Positions 29,432 through 37,563 of a stretch of DNA of 64,000 bases are shown in pieces (positions within the stretch are counted from its first letter, which is position 1; every line of letters begins with the position of its first letter). The DNA is from Fundidesulfovibrio putealis DSM 16056. GTDB taxonomy: Bacteria; Desulfobacterota; Desulfovibrionia; Desulfovibrionales; Desulfovibrionaceae. A program made the position numbers and the translations under genes. The notes below the pieces were generated by a model. That model worked only from the letters and a program-made list of their open reading frames with translations. It was not told the DNA's origin and made no database searches. The DNA lies in the NCBI RefSeq assembly GCF_000429325.1, contig NZ_AUBQ01000013.1:1-64000 (forward strand). Reading direction: 5' to 3'.

Positions 29432-29591
29432 GGGTTCTCCACGGATATCCGTCGATGTTGTTTTCGTGGCTTCACGCGCGCTCGCGCGTTTCGCCGCGAT
29501 TGCAACTAGCACATGAACCCGGTAGAGATAAAGGCGTTATCGGCGTGTCCCGCCGATGCCTGCGCTTCGCGCCAGACTTCAAGGAGCGGCA

Positions 29592-30071
29592 ATGACCAAA
29601 GCCAAAGAATTCACCGAGGCCCAGAAACGCGTCCTCTCGCTGGTCCAGGGCGACCTGCCCGACGGACCCGAACCCTTCGCCGAAATCGCCAAACAGGCCG
29701 GAGTGACCCAGGAGGAAGTGCTGGAGCTTCTCTCCGGCATGAAGGAACGCGGCGAGATCAGGCGCTTCGGAGCCACGCTTCGCCACCAGAAGGCCGGATA
29801 CGGCTGCAACGCCATGGTCGCCTGGTACGTGGACGACGCCGACATGGACCGCATCGGGGCCTTCATGGCCGCGCGCCCGGAAATATCCCACTGCTACCAC
29901 CGCGTGAACTGCATGGACTGGCCCTACAACCTCTACACCATGGTCCACGCCAAGAGCCGCGAGGAGTGCAGCGCCACCATCGCCGAGCTGGCCCGCCTCT
30001 CCGGAGTCGAGGAGCACGACGTGCTGGAGAGCCGCAAGGAATTCAAGAAAACCAGCATGCGGTACTTCTAG
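29592..30071 (+). CDS. ahbB: Siroheme decarboxylase subunit AhbB (NirG/H/L/D-like)
   Basis: 159 residues from ATG 29592 after AAGGAG. An AsnC/Lrp-like winged helix (about 1-60) is followed by an RAM-like domain with IRRFGATLRHQKAGY and CYHRVNCMDWPYNLYTM, the conserved core of siroheme decarboxylase subunits, and the C-terminal KKTSMRYF. AhbA-AhbB removes two carboxylates from siroheme in the siroheme-dependent haem pathway of sulfate reducers. The partner ahbA is not in the window. The gene ends 2 bp before the ClpX-like ATPase, so they are probably cotranscribed. Confidence 0.85.
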   Translation: MTKAKEFTEAQKRVLSLVQGDLPDGPEPFAEIAKQAGVTQEEVLELLSGMKERGEIRRFGATLRHQKAGYGCNAMVAWYVDDADMDRIGAFMAARPEISHCYHRVNCMDWPYNLYTMVHAKSREECSATIAELARLSGVEEHDVLESRKEFKKTSMRYF

Positions 30072-30073
30072 CC

Positions 30074-31177
30074 ATGCCCATCCTGCCCAAGGACATCCAC
30101 GCCTTCATGGCCCAGCGCGTGCTGGGCCAGCGCGACGTGCTGCGGCTCATTTCCGTGGCCGTGTACAAGCACGTCTCGGGCATCCGGGCAGGCAACATCC
30201 TCCTGGTGGGCAACTCCGGCACCGGCAAGACCACCATCATGAAGACCATCCACCGCTTCTACCACGAGCACGACGAGATGGCCCCCTTCAGGGTGATGGC
30301 CGTCCTGAACGCCAACATCCTGGCGGGCGAAGAGGGTGACATCCGCACCGCGCGCCTGTTCACCGCCCTGGAAGCAGCCGTCAAGAAGCAGCTCGGCGAA
30401 AACGTGGACCGCGAGACCATGCGCCAGGGGCTCCAGAACGCCACCGTCTGCCTGGACGAGGTGGACAAGATCTCCGCGCGCATCTCCGGCAAGCCAAACC
30501 CCATCGGCATTGCCCTCCAGCAGGCCCTCCTGACCATCCTGGAAGGCGAAACCATCATGGTGCCCGTCACGGTCACAGAAAACGGCCAGGAGGTCGCCAC
30601 GCACGTCCCCGTGGACACCGGGCGCATGCTCTTTGTGTGCGGCGGCGCGTTCGAGGAACTCTACGACCAGGTCTACAGCCTCATCATCAACCGCAAGGAC
30701 GACCGCCGCCTGAAGGAAACCACCGAGCTCCAGCGCACCCTCGAAGGCGAGGTGCGCGTCACCGCCGTCACCCGCTTCAAGCTGGTGGACTACATGCGCC
30801 TCTCGGACATGTTCGCCTACGGCATGCTGCCGCAGTTCCTGTCGCGCTTCACCTCCATGGCCATCCTGGACGACCTGGCCAAGGAAGACCTGGTGCAGAT
30901 ACTCATCGCCGCGCAGGACTCGCCCCTGCGACACTGCCGCGACTTCTTCGCCTCCATGGGCATTGAGCTGCGCGTCACCCAGGAGGCGCTGGAGATGATC
31001 GCCGAGCACGCCCTGCGCAACACCCGCATCGGAGCCAGGGCGCTGCGCGAGATATTCAGCCGGATTATGGCCGACGCCGAGTTCGACCCCTTCGGGCAGA
31101 AACGGCTCCAGAAGACCGAACAGGGCCATTCGCTGACCCTGGACCGGGCCATGGTGCTGGAACGCTTGAACAGGTGA
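30074..31177 (+). CDS. ClpX-like AAA+ ATPase lacking zinc domain and ClpP loop
   Basis: 367 residues, starting 2 bp after ahbB. Walker A GNSGTGKTT is at 46-54 and Walker B CLDEVDKIS near 126-134. The segments FVCGGAFEELYDQV and GMLPQFLSRF closely parallel ClpX. Two standard parts are absent: the N-terminal zinc-binding domain and the IGF loop that docks ClpP. The corresponding segment is charged (NRKDDRRLKETTELQR). It therefore looks like a ClpP-independent unfoldase or remodelling ATPase. Coupling to ahbB suggests, as inference only, a role in assembling or inserting tetrapyrrole cofactors. Confidence 0.85.
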   Translation: MPILPKDIHAFMAQRVLGQRDVLRLISVAVYKHVSGIRAGNILLVGNSGTGKTTIMKTIHRFYHEHDEMAPFRVMAVLNANILAGEEGDIRTARLFTALEAAVKKQLGENVDRETMRQGLQNATVCLDEVDKISARISGKPNPIGIALQQALLTILEGETIMVPVTVTENGQEVATHVPVDTGRMLFVCGGAFEELYDQVYSLIINRKDDRRLKETTELQRTLEGEVRVTAVTRFKLVDYMRLSDMFAYGMLPQFLSRFTSMAILDDLAKEDLVQILIAAQDSPLRHCRDFFASMGIELRVTQEALEMIAEHALRNTRIGARALREIFSRIMADAEFDPFGQKRLQKTEQGHSLTLDRAMVLERLNR

Positions 31178-31611: not shown

Positions 31612-31615
31612 CACC

Positions 31616-31646
31616 GGCTTATCCCAACTCTCCGCCGGGATAAGCC
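31616..31646. terminator. Hairpin after YciI-like gene
   Basis: GGCTTATCCC pairs perfectly with GGGATAAGCC over an 11-nt loop. The following sequence (GCTTTGGG) is only weakly T-rich, so terminator function is uncertain. Confidence 0.45.
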
Positions 31647-31706
31647 GCTTTGGGCGTTCCAGGCGGTTCACGCCCCCGCTCCTCCCAACTCAACCCGCCT
31701 GCGCAC

Positions 31707-31809: not shown

Positions 31810-33576
31810 TCAGGGCGCGACGCGGCTGGCCATGGACAGCGCCACGCGTCCGGTGACGGGCATCTTACCCATCTCGGCGAACGTCGTGGCCTGCCTGAGC
31901 ACCAGTTCGTCCTTGTCGGCCACCTGGAAGGTCTGTCCGATCTTGACCGGATACTTCCCGGCGAACAGCTGCACCATGCCTGCGGGGCCGTTGCCGCGCA
32001 CGTCCTTCAAGGTGTAGCGCCCAGGTGCGAGATGCATGTGCTTTCCAGGCGTCCAGGCCAGGGAGATTTCCCTGCCGTCGGCGGTGGCCAGGATCAGCGA
32101 CTGGACCTCGCGCGGATGCACGCGGATGGTGAACTTGGCGGCGGGTTCCTTGGGCGTCTCGCGCACAACTTCGCACAGGAACACGCCGTTGTCCTGCTGG
32201 GTCATGAAGCGCGGCAGGAAGCTCTTGGGATCCAGGATTATCTCCTGTCCGGCGTCCTGGCCGTCGTTCTTGCCCACGCGGGTGACGTAGCCCTTAAGGT
32301 TGAGGACTTCGTCCTTCTTGCTGCCCCGCACACCTTCCAACACCAGTTGATCGCCCTGCACGGCGTCGAGCACGTCGCCGGACTGCACGGTTTTCAGCTG
32401 TCCGCCCAGCCAGAAGACAAAAGCGGGCGGGCCGGATGTCTGGGCGGCGGGCCACGTGCCGGTCCACTCCAGGGTGGCCTTGCCGAGCGGGACGCCGTCG
32501 GCGCGCACGTCCAGGGTCTGGAACGGGGCCATGGGCAGGCGGGGGGCCTTGGCGAGGTTGAAGCCGGGGCGGTCCGAGGCGAAGACAGCCGTGACGGGGC
32601 TCATGGATTCGCTCCCGGCGGGGGCTTCGCAGCGCACGTCAAGCGGCGCTCCTGGCGAGACCTTGATGCGGGCCGGGGCGCTGGCGGTGGATTCGATCTC
32701 GCGTCCGTTGATCACCACCTTGAGGTTGCGTCCCGGATAGGTCTTCATATCTTCGGGTGCCAGACGCGGCGCTTCAAGCTCCACGCCGAACTGGCGCAGG
32801 AAGAGCACGGTGGCTTTCAACTGCTGGGCGGTCTTCCAGGAGAGGTCCGGAATGTTCTTGCTGACCTCCACGGCCACGGCGGGGATGCCCACGCTGGACA
32901 GGGCGTAGTAGGTCAGGGACTTGCGCTGCTCCAGGTATTTGGAGCGGTCGTTGAAGGTGTCCATGTTGAAGAGCTGGAAGGCGTAGTCCTTGGGCGCTAA
33001 GCCGTCGTTCAGCTTCACGAGCACCTGGCGCACCAGGCGTTCCAGCTGCACGGAGCGCTTGTACTCCGTGGTGTCGATGATGACGGACTGGCCGTAGCGC
33101 ATGGGGCCGCGCAGGTCGGACTTGCGCACGGGATCGTAGAAGCCGGAGCCTTCGTGCAGGTGCACCAGGGCCTGGCTCTGGGCCACCAGATAGCGGATGA
33201 CGCGGGCGAGGCGGTCCTCGTAGAATTCGTTGTAGTCTTTGTCGAAGCGGCGGTTCAGGTCCACGTTGATGGCGCGCTTGCGCTCATGGATGGAAGGGGG
33301 GTTGGCCCGGGGCACGATTATGACCGTGCCGCGCGTGACCTTGGCCCTGGTGAGCAGCTGGGCGGTGAGGAATCCGGCGGACTCGTCGCCCTGGATGCCG
33401 CCCTGCACCATGACCGTGGGGCCGGGCTTGTCGCCCCTCAGGAAGTGCACATCCAGGGAATACTGCGTGCCGGGGAAAAATGTGTGCATCTCCGCCCGGG
33501 CCTGGGCGCAGGGCAGGGCCAGCCACAGGGCGGCGGCCAGAACGCACGGGAAGAGCATGATCCGCAGGGACCGCAA
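31810..33576 (-). CDS. Csd4/Pgp1-like M99 metallocarboxypeptidase (cell-shape peptidoglycan trimming)
   Basis: About 588 residues from a TTG at 33576 that gives a classical signal peptide (MRSLRIMLFPCVLAAALWLA). An ATG at 33654 (overlapping the upstream gene by 56 bp) and an ATG at 33558 are alternatives. The catalytic domain has IQGDESAG, giving the Gln62-x-x-Glu65 zinc pair seen in Csd4 instead of the usual His-x-x-Glu. It also has INVDLNRRF for substrate binding, a His in LVHLHEG (139/141) and a late Glu in AVAVEVSKN. Csd4 trims peptidoglycan tripeptides to dipeptides in the periplasm and gives Helicobacter its helical shape. The C-terminal half is a run of beta-rich domains. Confidence 0.8.
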   Translation of the reverse strand: MRSLRIMLFPCVLAAALWLALPCAQARAEMHTFFPGTQYSLDVHFLRGDKPGPTVMVQGGIQGDESAGFLTAQLLTRAKVTRGTVIIVPRANPPSIHERKRAINVDLNRRFDKDYNEFYEDRLARVIRYLVAQSQALVHLHEGSGFYDPVRKSDLRGPMRYGQSVIIDTTEYKRSVQLERLVRQVLVKLNDGLAPKDYAFQLFNMDTFNDRSKYLEQRKSLTYYALSSVGIPAVAVEVSKNIPDLSWKTAQQLKATVLFLRQFGVELEAPRLAPEDMKTYPGRNLKVVINGREIESTASAPARIKVSPGAPLDVRCEAPAGSESMSPVTAVFASDRPGFNLAKAPRLPMAPFQTLDVRADGVPLGKATLEWTGTWPAAQTSGPPAFVFWLGGQLKTVQSGDVLDAVQGDQLVLEGVRGSKKDEVLNLKGYVTRVGKNDGQDAGQEIILDPKSFLPRFMTQQDNGVFLCEVVRETPKEPAAKFTIRVHPREVQSLILATADGREISLAWTPGKHMHLAPGRYTLKDVRGNGPAGMVQLFAGKYPVKIGQTFQVADKDELVLRQATTFAEMGKMPVTGRVALSMASRVAP

Positions 33577-33598
33577 CCGGGCAGCGCGGCCTGGGCGG

Positions 33599-34375
33599 TC
33601 AGGGAGTCTGGGCAAGCGGATACGTCTCGCTGAAGATGGTCTTTCCTGAAGCATTGGTGAGCACCAGCCTGACTGCGAAAATTGAGCCGGGTTCCAGGCC
33701 CTGGGGAATCGGGGCCAGGGCCGCGACCTGCTTGAAGCGCTGAATATTGAACCCCAGATCGTCCTTGCCGGTCTGCAAGGGGACCATGTTGCCCTCGCGG
33801 CTGACAGCCAGGAGCTGGCCGTTGCCCGAGAGCGCCTGGGGCATCAGGTTGGAGAGGTCGAATCCGTAGCTCAACCCCTTGGGCTCGACCTTGGCGCGGA
33901 AGTTCTCCACGCCCACCTGTCCCAGGTCCACCTTGCCCATCACGCCGGCCAGATCGAATCCGGCGGGGCGTTCAGCGGGGGCGCTGTTCTTGGCGGCTTC
34001 CTTGGGTGCATCCTTCGGGGCATCCTTGGCAGGCTTGCCCTGATTTTTCGTTGCGGTGGATTCCAGCCCCATCCCGGCCAGCAGCTGGGAGAGCTCGTTG
34101 GCGTCGGAGGTCTGGAGGAGTTTCTCGATGTTCTGGAGCCGCTCCAGCTTCAGGAGCGTGTCGGACAGGCGTTTCTCGACCTCGCGACGCTCATTCTGCA
34201 TCTCCTGGCCGCGCCGCCAGAACTCGTACGCGGCGAACAGGCCTCCGGCGGCGCACAGCGTCACGAACACCATGAGGTAGGTGACCGCGCGAATCCAGCC
34301 GGAGCGGATGCACAGGCGTTTGGCCGGTTCCTGATCGCGAAACCAGATGAGGTTGAGCTTGCCGGGGGGGGCCAT
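33599..34375 (-). CDS. Single-pass coiled-coil membrane protein of shape module
   Basis: 258 residues. A cytoplasmic basic N-terminus (RLCIRSGWIR) leads to one helix at about 30-50. A predicted coiled coil (about 55-95) follows, then a Lys/Ala/Pro-rich linker containing KPAKDAPKDAPKEAAK and a beta-type domain to the C-terminus. No family is recognised. Its ATG directly follows the stop of the L,D-transpeptidase-fold gene, and it is followed by the Csd4-like gene. A scaffold that localises the two enzymes in the periplasm is plausible, comparable in role but not in evident sequence to small Csd membrane proteins. Confidence 0.75.
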   Translation of the reverse strand: MAPPGKLNLIWFRDQEPAKRLCIRSGWIRAVTYLMVFVTLCAAGGLFAAYEFWRRGQEMQNERREVEKRLSDTLLKLERLQNIEKLLQTSDANELSQLLAGMGLESTATKNQGKPAKDAPKDAPKEAAKNSAPAERPAGFDLAGVMGKVDLGQVGVENFRAKVEPKGLSYGFDLSNLMPQALSGNGQLLAVSREGNMVPLQTGKDDLGFNIQRFKQVAALAPIPQGLEPGSIFAVRLVLTNASGKTIFSETYPLAQTP

Positions 34376-35671
34376 TTACATCTTGCTCCAGTCCTCGTCC
34401 AGGATGGCCCAGCCGTCGCCCACGGGGCCGAAGACCATCTTCTTTTTGCCCTTGTCGGCCACGCCGTCCTTGCTGGCGTACTCCTGGATGAATTCCACCA
34501 GCACGCCCTCCTGGGCCAGGGTGAACTTCATGTCGCGGATGGCGACCTTTTTGGGGGCCTTGTTGCCGTTCCAGATCTGCTGCTTGTGTTCGCGAATGGC
34601 GGTCGCGCCCTTGCGGTCGCCCTGGGTGGCGTTGGGACCGTAGAACTGCATGTACTCGGCCACCTTCCCCTTTTCCCAGGCCTGGCGCCAGGCCTCGACC
34701 ACCTTGGTCACGTCGCCGCGCACGCGGGCCAGGTACTTGCCTTCAAGACCCAGGGAGGTCTCGGCATACTCCACGCCCACGATCACGAAGCGGCCCTGCT
34801 CGTTACGCTGCCAGTAGAGACGCTTGACGCCCTCGCTGGCCAGCGTCGGGGAACGGTACAGCTGGCCGAAATAGGTGACCCAGTAGTCGGGTCCCTGCAC
34901 GGCGCGCACGTCGTCGATCAGCACGTGAATCCAGGGAAGCTTGGAGAAAAGCTGGCGCTTCTGGCTGCGGAAGGCGTCGAAGGGTTCGCCGGTAGCCACG
35001 GAGTACTTGGCTGCGTCATGAAAGGCGAAGAAGTCTTCGGACTTGCGCGACCAGGCCTTGGCCCACTCCAGGGTGGCGGCAACCACTTCCTGGGCCTCCT
35101 TGGCGGCAGCGGGGGCGTCCTTGGACCAGTGGACCTCGTTGGCGATGACCACGGGCAGCACGCGCTTGGTGAACTGGGGGTCCAGTTCCTTGATGTCGGG
35201 GTTGTTCAACGCCACGCAGCCCCGGCTTTCCATGGGGGTGATGGGCCTGCCCCGCCCATGGATCCAGATGCCCGAGCCTTTGCGGCCGTTGATCACGTCG
35301 ATGGGATTGGGGTAGTTCAGCGTGAAGGCCAGGTCGCCGTAGAGACCGTAATCCAGGCCGCCGTTGATGCGTTCGCGGATGAAATAGACGCCTTCGGGGG
35401 TCTTCAGGTCGCCCTCTTTCCATTTGGTGCCCGGCTCCTGCCCGGTGGTGCAGGGCAGCTGCTTGATGGGCTGCAAAGGGCTCTGCTGCTCGAAGAACCA
35501 GAAGGTCTGCGAGGACTTGTCCACGGCCAGGAACCTCTGGGGGCCGTAAGGGTCGGCCCGCAGGCTCACCGCCCAGCCTTCGCCGGCCAGGGAGGCGGTT
35601 GCCGAGGACAACAGCAGGAAGACGGCAGCGACGATACCGGAAACGGATGTGATGGCGTGGGACAGTGCCAC
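34376..35671 (-). CDS. Csd6/Pgp2-like L,D-transpeptidase-fold protein with NTF2-like domain
   Basis: 431 residues from a GTG at 35671 chosen for its strong AAGGAGG site 9 nt upstream; a TTG at 35716 is in frame. A signal peptide ends near ATASLAG. The YkuD/ErfK fold has catalytic His138 (GIWIHGRG) and Ser149-Arg-Gly-Cys152. The C-terminal 110 residues look like an NTF2-type pocket (VVEAWRQAWEKGKVAEYMQFY). This is the domain order of Csd6 and Pgp2, which act as L,D-carboxypeptidases on peptidoglycan tetrapeptides. The Csd4-like enzyme encoded two genes downstream would act next in the pathway. Confidence 0.85.
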   Translation of the reverse strand: MALSHAITSVSGIVAAVFLLLSSATASLAGEGWAVSLRADPYGPQRFLAVDKSSQTFWFFEQQSPLQPIKQLPCTTGQEPGTKWKEGDLKTPEGVYFIRERINGGLDYGLYGDLAFTLNYPNPIDVINGRKGSGIWIHGRGRPITPMESRGCVALNNPDIKELDPQFTKRVLPVVIANEVHWSKDAPAAAKEAQEVVAATLEWAKAWSRKSEDFFAFHDAAKYSVATGEPFDAFRSQKRQLFSKLPWIHVLIDDVRAVQGPDYWVTYFGQLYRSPTLASEGVKRLYWQRNEQGRFVIVGVEYAETSLGLEGKYLARVRGDVTKVVEAWRQAWEKGKVAEYMQFYGPNATQGDRKGATAIREHKQQIWNGNKAPKKVAIRDMKFTLAQEGVLVEFIQEYASKDGVADKGKKKMVFGPVGDGWAILDEDWSKM

Positions 35672-35722
35672 GGTCTGGCTCCTCCTTGAGTCGACGGTGG
35701 GCTTGAACGGGCTCAACTACCT

Positions 35723-36267
35723 TTAGCCTTTGGCCGCGACGAGATCGGCTCGGGTGAAGATGGCGTTGAGATCGTACCCGGCGGCTGCCAGGTTCTCGCG
35801 ACCGCCTTCCTGGCGGTCAAGCACGGCCAATACCGCCACGATGGTCAGTCCGGCGTCGCGCACGCGCTCGCAGGCCTTGAGGAGCGTGCCGCCCGTGGTG
35901 ACCACGTCCTCCAGCATGGCGACCTTGTCGCCGGGCTGGAAGTTGACGAGCCCTTCAAGAAACTGGTTGGTCCCGTGCCCCTTGGACTGCTTGCGCACGA
36001 TGAAACCGGGCAGGGGGCGCTTGCCAATGTAGGACATCACGGTGACGGCGCTCACCAGGGGGTCGGCCCCCAGGGTCATGCCGCCCACGCCCTGCACGTC
36101 CAGGCCGGAGAGCATGTCGCAGAAGATGTTGCCCAGCAGGTAGGACCCTTCAGGATGCAGGGCCGTGGGCTTGCAATCGAAATAATAGTCGCTCTTGCGA
36201 CCCGAGGTGAGGACGAAATCGCCTTCGCGATAGGACTTGTCGAGAATGATTCTGGCTAACCGCTGTT

Positions 36268-36271
<4 letters not shown>
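35723..36271 (-). CDS. pyrE: Orotate phosphoribosyltransferase
   Basis: 182 residues from a GTG that overlaps the purB stop by 4 bp. PyrE attaches orotate to PRPP in pyrimidine synthesis. The PRPP loop VAMLEDVVTTGGTLLKA is at about 118-134, and SGRKSDYYFDCKP near 23-35 is a family signature. It belongs to a minus-strand operon with purB and ends 51 bp before the shape module, which may be cotranscribed. Confidence 0.94.

Positions 36272-37563
<1,292 letters not shown>

Follow-up and report, generated by a model that had tools for sequence, protein, structure and literature searches.

What do three consecutive minus-strand genes at nt 31810–35671 of contig NZ_AUBQ01000013.1 of Fundidesulfovibrio putealis DSM 16056 do together, given that a membrane protein of no described family is encoded between two predicted peptidoglycan-trimming enzymes? 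The genes lie in the window (the whole stretch of 64,000 nt that was analysed) and are called here LDT (nt 34376–35671), MID (nt 33599–34375) and M99 (nt 31810–33654). The original prediction described three contiguous genes, and these are present as open reading frames in an order that is conserved in related genomes. We propose that they form a module for trimming peptidoglycan stem peptides, with a membrane-anchored partner for LDT, and that the module most likely serves cell curvature; we put the probability of this reading at about one half.

The longest LDT frame covers nt 34376–35716, and the GTG at nt 35671, which is preceded by AAGGAGG, is most likely the start codon, in agreement with the coordinate given earlier. 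The product appears by eye to be exported, and it matches the Pfam families YkuD (1.8e-16; catalytic domain with HG...SRGC at nt 35165–35536, residues 61–184) and Cds6_C, which is NTF2-like (2.1e-24). The second match falls in two stretches, nt 34781–35083 (E 3.4e-10) and nt 34394–34711 (E 6.6e-13), and the predicted C-terminal NTF2-like domain is confirmed in kind but is two domains, not one. Among solved relatives, Bd1075 (7o21) is the closest, both by sequence search (4e-32, versus 9e-26 for Csd6 and 3e-21 for Pgp2) and by profile search (1.8e-53, versus 5.5e-38 and 2.6e-37). Csd6/Pgp2 and Csd4/Pgp1 had been named as the closest counterparts of the two enzymes; this holds for Csd4 and M99, but not for LDT. 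Residues H153, G154, G166 and C167 are invariant in an alignment of 27 rows, so that HG and GC of the motif are retained throughout while SR is not. Two residues past the catalytic Cys, A169 is Ala in at least 90% of the same rows, with no Arg at this position. Ala is reported there for Csd6, Pgp2 and YafK, and Arg for most LD-transpeptidases (PMC8938487).

These features indicate that LDT is very likely an LD-carboxypeptidase, cutting the terminal D-Ala from tetrapeptides to leave tripeptides. It is improbable that LDT is instead a true LD-transpeptidase, or a DpaA-like amidase that would detach a lipoprotein of the outer membrane from peptidoglycan. YafK-like enzymes too have Ala past the Cys motif (PMC8938487), and LDT does match the DpaA/YafK model, but weakly (1.2e-5, far below the cut-off); the matches to Bd1075, Csd6 and Pgp2 are far stronger and extend into the NTF2-like domain, and the enzyme for the next step of the trimming path, M99, is encoded as a neighbour.

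M99 matches Pfam Peptidase_M99 at 8e-24 (85 bits, with a cut-off of 27) and Csd4 at 8e-19. It is a putatively exported carboxypeptidase of the Csd4/Pgp1 type, in which the C-terminal beta region is longer; its frame is taken from the first ATG, and an internal ATG near nt 33558, followed by a signal-peptide-like stretch (by eye), is an alternative start. The IQGDE motif pointed out in the original prediction, with its atypical Gln ligand, occupies residues 87–91 of the protein, and a His ligand (H167) and a Glu (E263) complete the site within the catalytic domain (nt 32773–33423). By alignment with Csd4, we take Q88, E91 and H167 to be the zinc ligands and E263 the catalytic Glu. All four are retained in 36 of 36 close M99 rows, among which are identical copies and, once, the protein encoded in the window itself. 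Across 61 rows from other groups (identical copies included), Gln is kept in 59 (His in two), E91 and H167 in all 61, and E263 in 60, the last row having a gap. Structure prediction gave a model with a mean pLDDT of 85.3, for which the five top Foldseek matches in PDB are all Csd4 (3.0e-24 to 1.1e-22), a comparison that had been proposed as a check. M99 would very likely act as a DL-carboxypeptidase, removing the next residue of tripeptides to leave dipeptides.

On the minus strand of the window, the gene order is purB (adenylosuccinate lyase; nt 36268–37563), a pyrE-like phosphoribosyltransferase gene (nt 35723–36271), LDT, MID and M99, almost without gaps. The first two, identified by their frames and by Pfam, are conserved neighbours. 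Among 59 near genomes (the window's own included), MID was found in 44 by profile search at E < 1e-10; 46 had been listed, and the weak coiled-coil matches of G039 and G057 were dropped, while a single-sequence search had given 42 of the 59. After exclusion of seven paralogue regions (L049, L058, L070 and L076–L079), purB and/or pyrE was present at 40 of the 41 main MID loci fetched. Of the 44 genomes with MID, 38 have LDT next to it, and LDT-MID-M99 is contiguous in 22 of the 59. The sequence similarities, the nearest PDB fold of M99 and the conserved gene order are far beyond chance. In the pyrE-MID gap of locus L067, a 200-aa frame (L067:5271-5870) starts like a lipoprotein (by eye) and matches no Pfam family; gaps of similar size occur in L065, L069, L072 and L074 (group f5/g33), at the place where LDT stands in other genomes.

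M99 occurs in 37 of the 59 near genomes, 26 with the divergent form found in the trio and 11 with a canonical form that is closer to Csd4 (genes split over two frames, in G056 and L221, were scored as present). The canonical genes lie elsewhere in the genomes of 11 Desulfovibrionaceae (G007, G009, G014, G015, G016, G019, G020, G022, G024, G026 and G030; loci L160–L170), with matches of 4.7e-77 to 6.3e-88. A tree of 108 M99 rows (85 different) places the 11 in one clade, with support of 100/99, apart from the trio clade; long branches were flagged. Both forms over the cut-off were found in none of the 59 genomes (hypergeometric 0.0007, descent ignored), and we infer that one M99 has been replaced by another with the same job. 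Outside the 59, a genome named Desulfocurvus sp. (L093) carries two M99 genes (3.0e-35 and 2.6e-22).

Farther out, species genomes were scanned with an LDT alignment, and the best 80 of 575 loci by LDT similarity were followed by name. Eighteen of these (L080–L095, L106 and L159) were assigned to Desulfovibrionales on the basis of their names and identity. In several cases, named loci and near genomes share one sequence, giving identical rows, so the locus counts are not independent. MID adjoins LDT in 15 of the 18 Desulfovibrionales loci, with M99 following in 11, and in 15 of the other 62 (in one as a fused domain only), 12 of which also have M99. The loci with MID in this slot are named as Desulfobacterota, Deltaproteobacteria, KSB1 (L110), Latescibacterota (L113) and an unplaced bacterium (L118); the full LDT-MID-M99 order recurs in single KSB1 and Latescibacterota loci, and an Oligoflexia locus (L156) has MID in the slot and no M99. 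Of 18 named genomes searched, 13 have M99. In several loci named as Beta- or Gammaproteobacteria (L116, L117, L122, L125, L131, L138, L139, L142, L143 and others), a separate protein precedes the LDT relative and matches the LDT profile in the second NTF2-like part only.

Within the phylum, a MID scan matched 114 of 297 genomes, many by the N-terminal part only. Forty regions around mostly better-scoring matches, from 38 genomes (three in the window's own family), were compared: LDT adjoins in 30, with M99 as well in 22 (two with MID as a fused domain only), and 10 have no LDT. The conservation of the trio, which had been proposed as a check, is thus seen in 22 of the 59 near genomes and 22 of the 40 phylum regions, with MID or M99 missing in several lineages.

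MID is the new part of the cassette. It is a protein of 258 aa with a single membrane pass, and the window's copy reached no cut-off in Pfam or NCBIfam; among its aligned relatives, no Pfam family (E ≤ 1) was common to more than 2 members in a set of 41 or 3 in a set of 31. In the predicted structure (mean pLDDT 83.9), a beta hairpin at the N-terminus (residues 6–24; nt 34304–34360) is followed by a helix some 65 residues long, part of which is the membrane segment, and then by a linker of low confidence and an Ig-like beta sandwich (about residues 150–256; nt 33608–33928). The membrane segment and coiled coil together span residues 25–101 (nt 34073–34303). Presumably, the hairpin lies in the cytoplasm and the sandwich in the periplasm.

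Each end of MID has a relative elsewhere. The N-terminus aligns with M23 peptidases over the hairpin, the membrane segment and the start of the coiled coil (hhalign, 1.2e-13; all hhalign values given here are from single comparisons). Seven of ten scanned proteins among its further matches are M23, the remaining three being MID-like in two cases (L258 and L244) and a porin in the third; the M23 comparison set was itself picked by its match to MID, and seven of the ten proteins in it were checked with Pfam. With the C-terminal domain of DUF6776 (PF20567), the sandwich aligns at 2e-7, compared with 0.043 for the best of 20 column shuffles, 0.18 for the reversed alignment, 0.013 for the LDT alignment and 0.041 for that of M99. 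Full-length MID against DUF6776 profiles gave 7.8e-12 over 203 columns, and 2.2e-10. No MID place in the 59 near genomes reaches or nears the DUF6776 cut-off of Pfam, and 2 of 31 MID members have a weak match to it (best 0.0089). Judged by these profile comparisons, MID is a distant relative of DUF6776; the middle gene, called undescribed in the original prediction, does fall outside the named families but is not without kin.

Closer identities for MID were rejected: an M23 peptidase (no M23 catalytic domain by Pfam, and a value of 0.75 for the C-terminal part against the M23 alignment), RodZ (no helix-turn-helix in the window's MID by Pfam) and a plain DUF6776 member (below the Pfam cut-off). 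Locus L079 has an open frame of 1842 codons (L079:979-6504) with a MID-type sandwich at its end and no Pfam family; the frame possibly exceeds the gene.

DUF6776 is present in 11 of 18 genomes searched that are named as Beta- or Gammaproteobacteria. A bactofilin gene comes next after the DUF6776 gene in nine of ten loci (Pfam, 3e-29 to 5e-24; the fragment L270 was left out), and in the tenth, L264, no bactofilin-type frame was seen among frames of at least 95 codons. One paper on DUF6776 was found among open-licence papers, and the part of it that was available gives no function. The genome of the window has a single bactofilin match, outside the window (G000:C28:714116-714403, L175), with a RodA-like frame before it and ATP-synthase-like frames after it (by eye).

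In three genomes (G147, G074 and G230, the last with the same sequence as L129), one frame encodes LDT followed by the MID sandwich, and M99 adjoins. Since the gene order is conserved and the domain occurs fused to LDT, MID is likely a partner of LDT. It could instead have a job of its own, as a cytoskeletal or elongation adaptor that is merely co-transcribed with the enzymes behind purB-pyrE, and some observations point that way: the N-terminus is of M23 type; five genomes of group f5/g33 have purB, pyrE and then MID, with LDT absent from this place and M99 not found, and carry LDT-like genes at other places; and in three f5 genomes (G038, G047 and G051) the MID-type sandwich also stands behind a RodZ-type HTH_25 domain, in second copies beside an ordinary HTH_25 protein. 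A separate job is nevertheless doubtful, given the natural fusions and the loci in which the LDT-MID-M99 slot is kept though purB and pyrE were not found upstream (e.g., L209, L213, L222 and L230).

Taking MID as the partner of LDT, the trimming module could operate as follows. LDT would remove the terminal D-Ala from tetrapeptides, as Csd6 and Pgp2 do, and M99 would then remove the next residue from the resulting tripeptides, as Csd4 and Pgp1 do. MID would sit in the inner membrane with its M23-type hairpin inside, followed by the membrane segment and coiled coil, and with the Ig-like domain in the periplasm, where it would bind LDT or its NTF2 domains. Trimming would in this way be confined to selected sites in the wall, most likely to bend the cell. 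An M23-like N-terminus joined to the sandwich of a bactofilin-linked family makes a role in placing the trimming plausible, and MID may tell the trimming enzymes where to cut. The earlier suggestion of MID as a scaffold is likewise plausible, and gains from the LDT fusions and the conserved order. A bolder and more tentative idea is that MID and DUF6776 represent two branches of a single family, as yet undescribed, of adaptors in the inner membrane, which would link bactofilin or RodZ/MreB to periplasmic trimming enzymes, with MID setting the side of the cell that is trimmed by the LD-carboxypeptidase.

The module probably acts in curvature because its homologues act in cell shape, and that is the whole basis of this part of the reading. 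In Helicobacter pylori, Csd6 acts ahead of Csd4 and cells are straight if either is lost (PMC3844677); Bd1075 (PMC8938487) and Pgp1 and Pgp2 (PMC12454360) also act in shape. The enzymes could alternatively be a general pair for wall trimming or recycling that has no particular part in curvature, their gene order being conserved because the two trimming steps are sequential. Neither MID nor M99 is near LDT in 35 of the 62 loci outside Desulfovibrionales (4 of the 35 end within 1.5 kb), which speaks for such a pair, and Pgp2 orthologues are widespread, occurring across helical, vibrioid, rod-shaped and coccoid species (PMC5335918). The described enzymes of the YkuD-NTF2 and M99 types are, however, those just named as shaping cells, and Pgp1 is described as conserved above all in epsilon- and delta-proteobacteria of helical or vibrioid shape (PMC5335918), so that a general pair appears unlikely. 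Record names such as Denitrovibrio, Thermodesulfovibrio, Mucispirillum and Desulfocurvus are at most a hint of curved cells.

The breadth of Pgp2 and the five f5/g33 genomes also weigh against a three-part curvature module, as do several further results. LDT is followed directly by M99, with MID absent, in 12 of the 62 loci outside Desulfovibrionales (names such as Denitrovibrio, Mucispirillum, Thermodesulfovibrio, Neomarinimicrobiota and Balneatrix), and G041 and G057 (f3) have purB-pyrE-LDT-M99 without MID; the pair can therefore do without MID. M99 was not found in 10 of the 44 MID genomes, nor, among the 18 named genomes, in two Mailhella, Pseudobacteriovorax, Marinobacterium jannaschii and a Desulfobacteraceae metagenome-assembled genome. 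The three LDT-MID fusions may be one event, as their M99 proteins form one clade. On the structural side, the MID model found only generic sandwiches in Foldseek, with no PDB fold at E ≤ 0.001, and when the whole M99 model is fitted to Csd4 as a single rigid body, the agreement is poor (rmsd 16.8 over 481 columns, with TM scores of 0.40 for the query and 0.57 for the target).

Past M99 lies a terminator-like stem of 14 pairs with a T-rich tail (nt 31615–31647, minus strand); the region has 5 such sites compared with a mean of 6.0 in shuffles, i.e., no enrichment. Beyond it, on the plus strand, nt 29556–30071 encode a siroheme decarboxylase NirDL-like/AsnC-type protein (Pfam), and the frame that follows, ending at nt 31177, has a Walker-A-like GNSGTGKTT (by eye).

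The conservation of Pgp1/M99 in vibrioid delta-proteobacteria is already in print (PMC5335918). Neither the LDT-MID-M99 cassette nor MID was found in open-licence papers, a weak test in the case of MID because it has no name to search; in the same literature, no paper was found that pairs Csd4 and Csd6, or peptidase M99, with Desulfovibrio, or Csd4 homologues with Deltaproteobacteria. The authors of the Bd1075 study state that, to their knowledge, no mechanism is known for asymmetric targeting to one lateral wall, and they point to the NTF2 domain (PMC8938487). MID can be deleted and tagged, and is a concrete candidate for what positions a shape enzyme on one side of the cell, its case resting on a gene between both enzymes in three phyla (by record names), on the LDT fusions and on a bactofilin-linked relative.

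Each part of the cassette has a described counterpart from which it also departs. Bd1075, the LD-carboxypeptidase that curves the cell of Bdellovibrio bacteriovorus, has YkuD and NTF2-like domains as LDT does and is its best solved relative, but LDT has two NTF2-like domains, has Ala rather than the Val of Bd1075 two residues past the catalytic Cys, and is encoded beside MID and M99. Csd6 of H. pylori and Pgp2 of Campylobacter jejuni share the YkuD and NTF2-like domains and the Ala past the Cys motif with LDT, which differs in its second NTF2-like domain and its linkage to an M99 gene, and is less similar to them than to Bd1075. Like Csd4 of H. pylori and Pgp1 of C. jejuni, M99 has a Gln zinc site and a conserved Glu, and Csd4 is its nearest PDB fold, but M99 is 614 aa long, compared with 437 aa for the Csd4 construct, with poor superposition of the whole chains, and the trio M99 proteins form a clade separate from the canonical M99 of the 11 Desulfovibrionaceae genomes. 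DUF6776 proteins share the membrane segment, coiled coil and C-terminal beta domain of MID, although MID is encoded next to LDT and M99, and DUF6776 next to bactofilin. The M23 peptidases with an N-terminal membrane hairpin, which we take to be Csd1-like in kind, have the same hairpin, membrane segment and start of the coiled coil, whereas MID carries an Ig-like domain in place of the peptidase.

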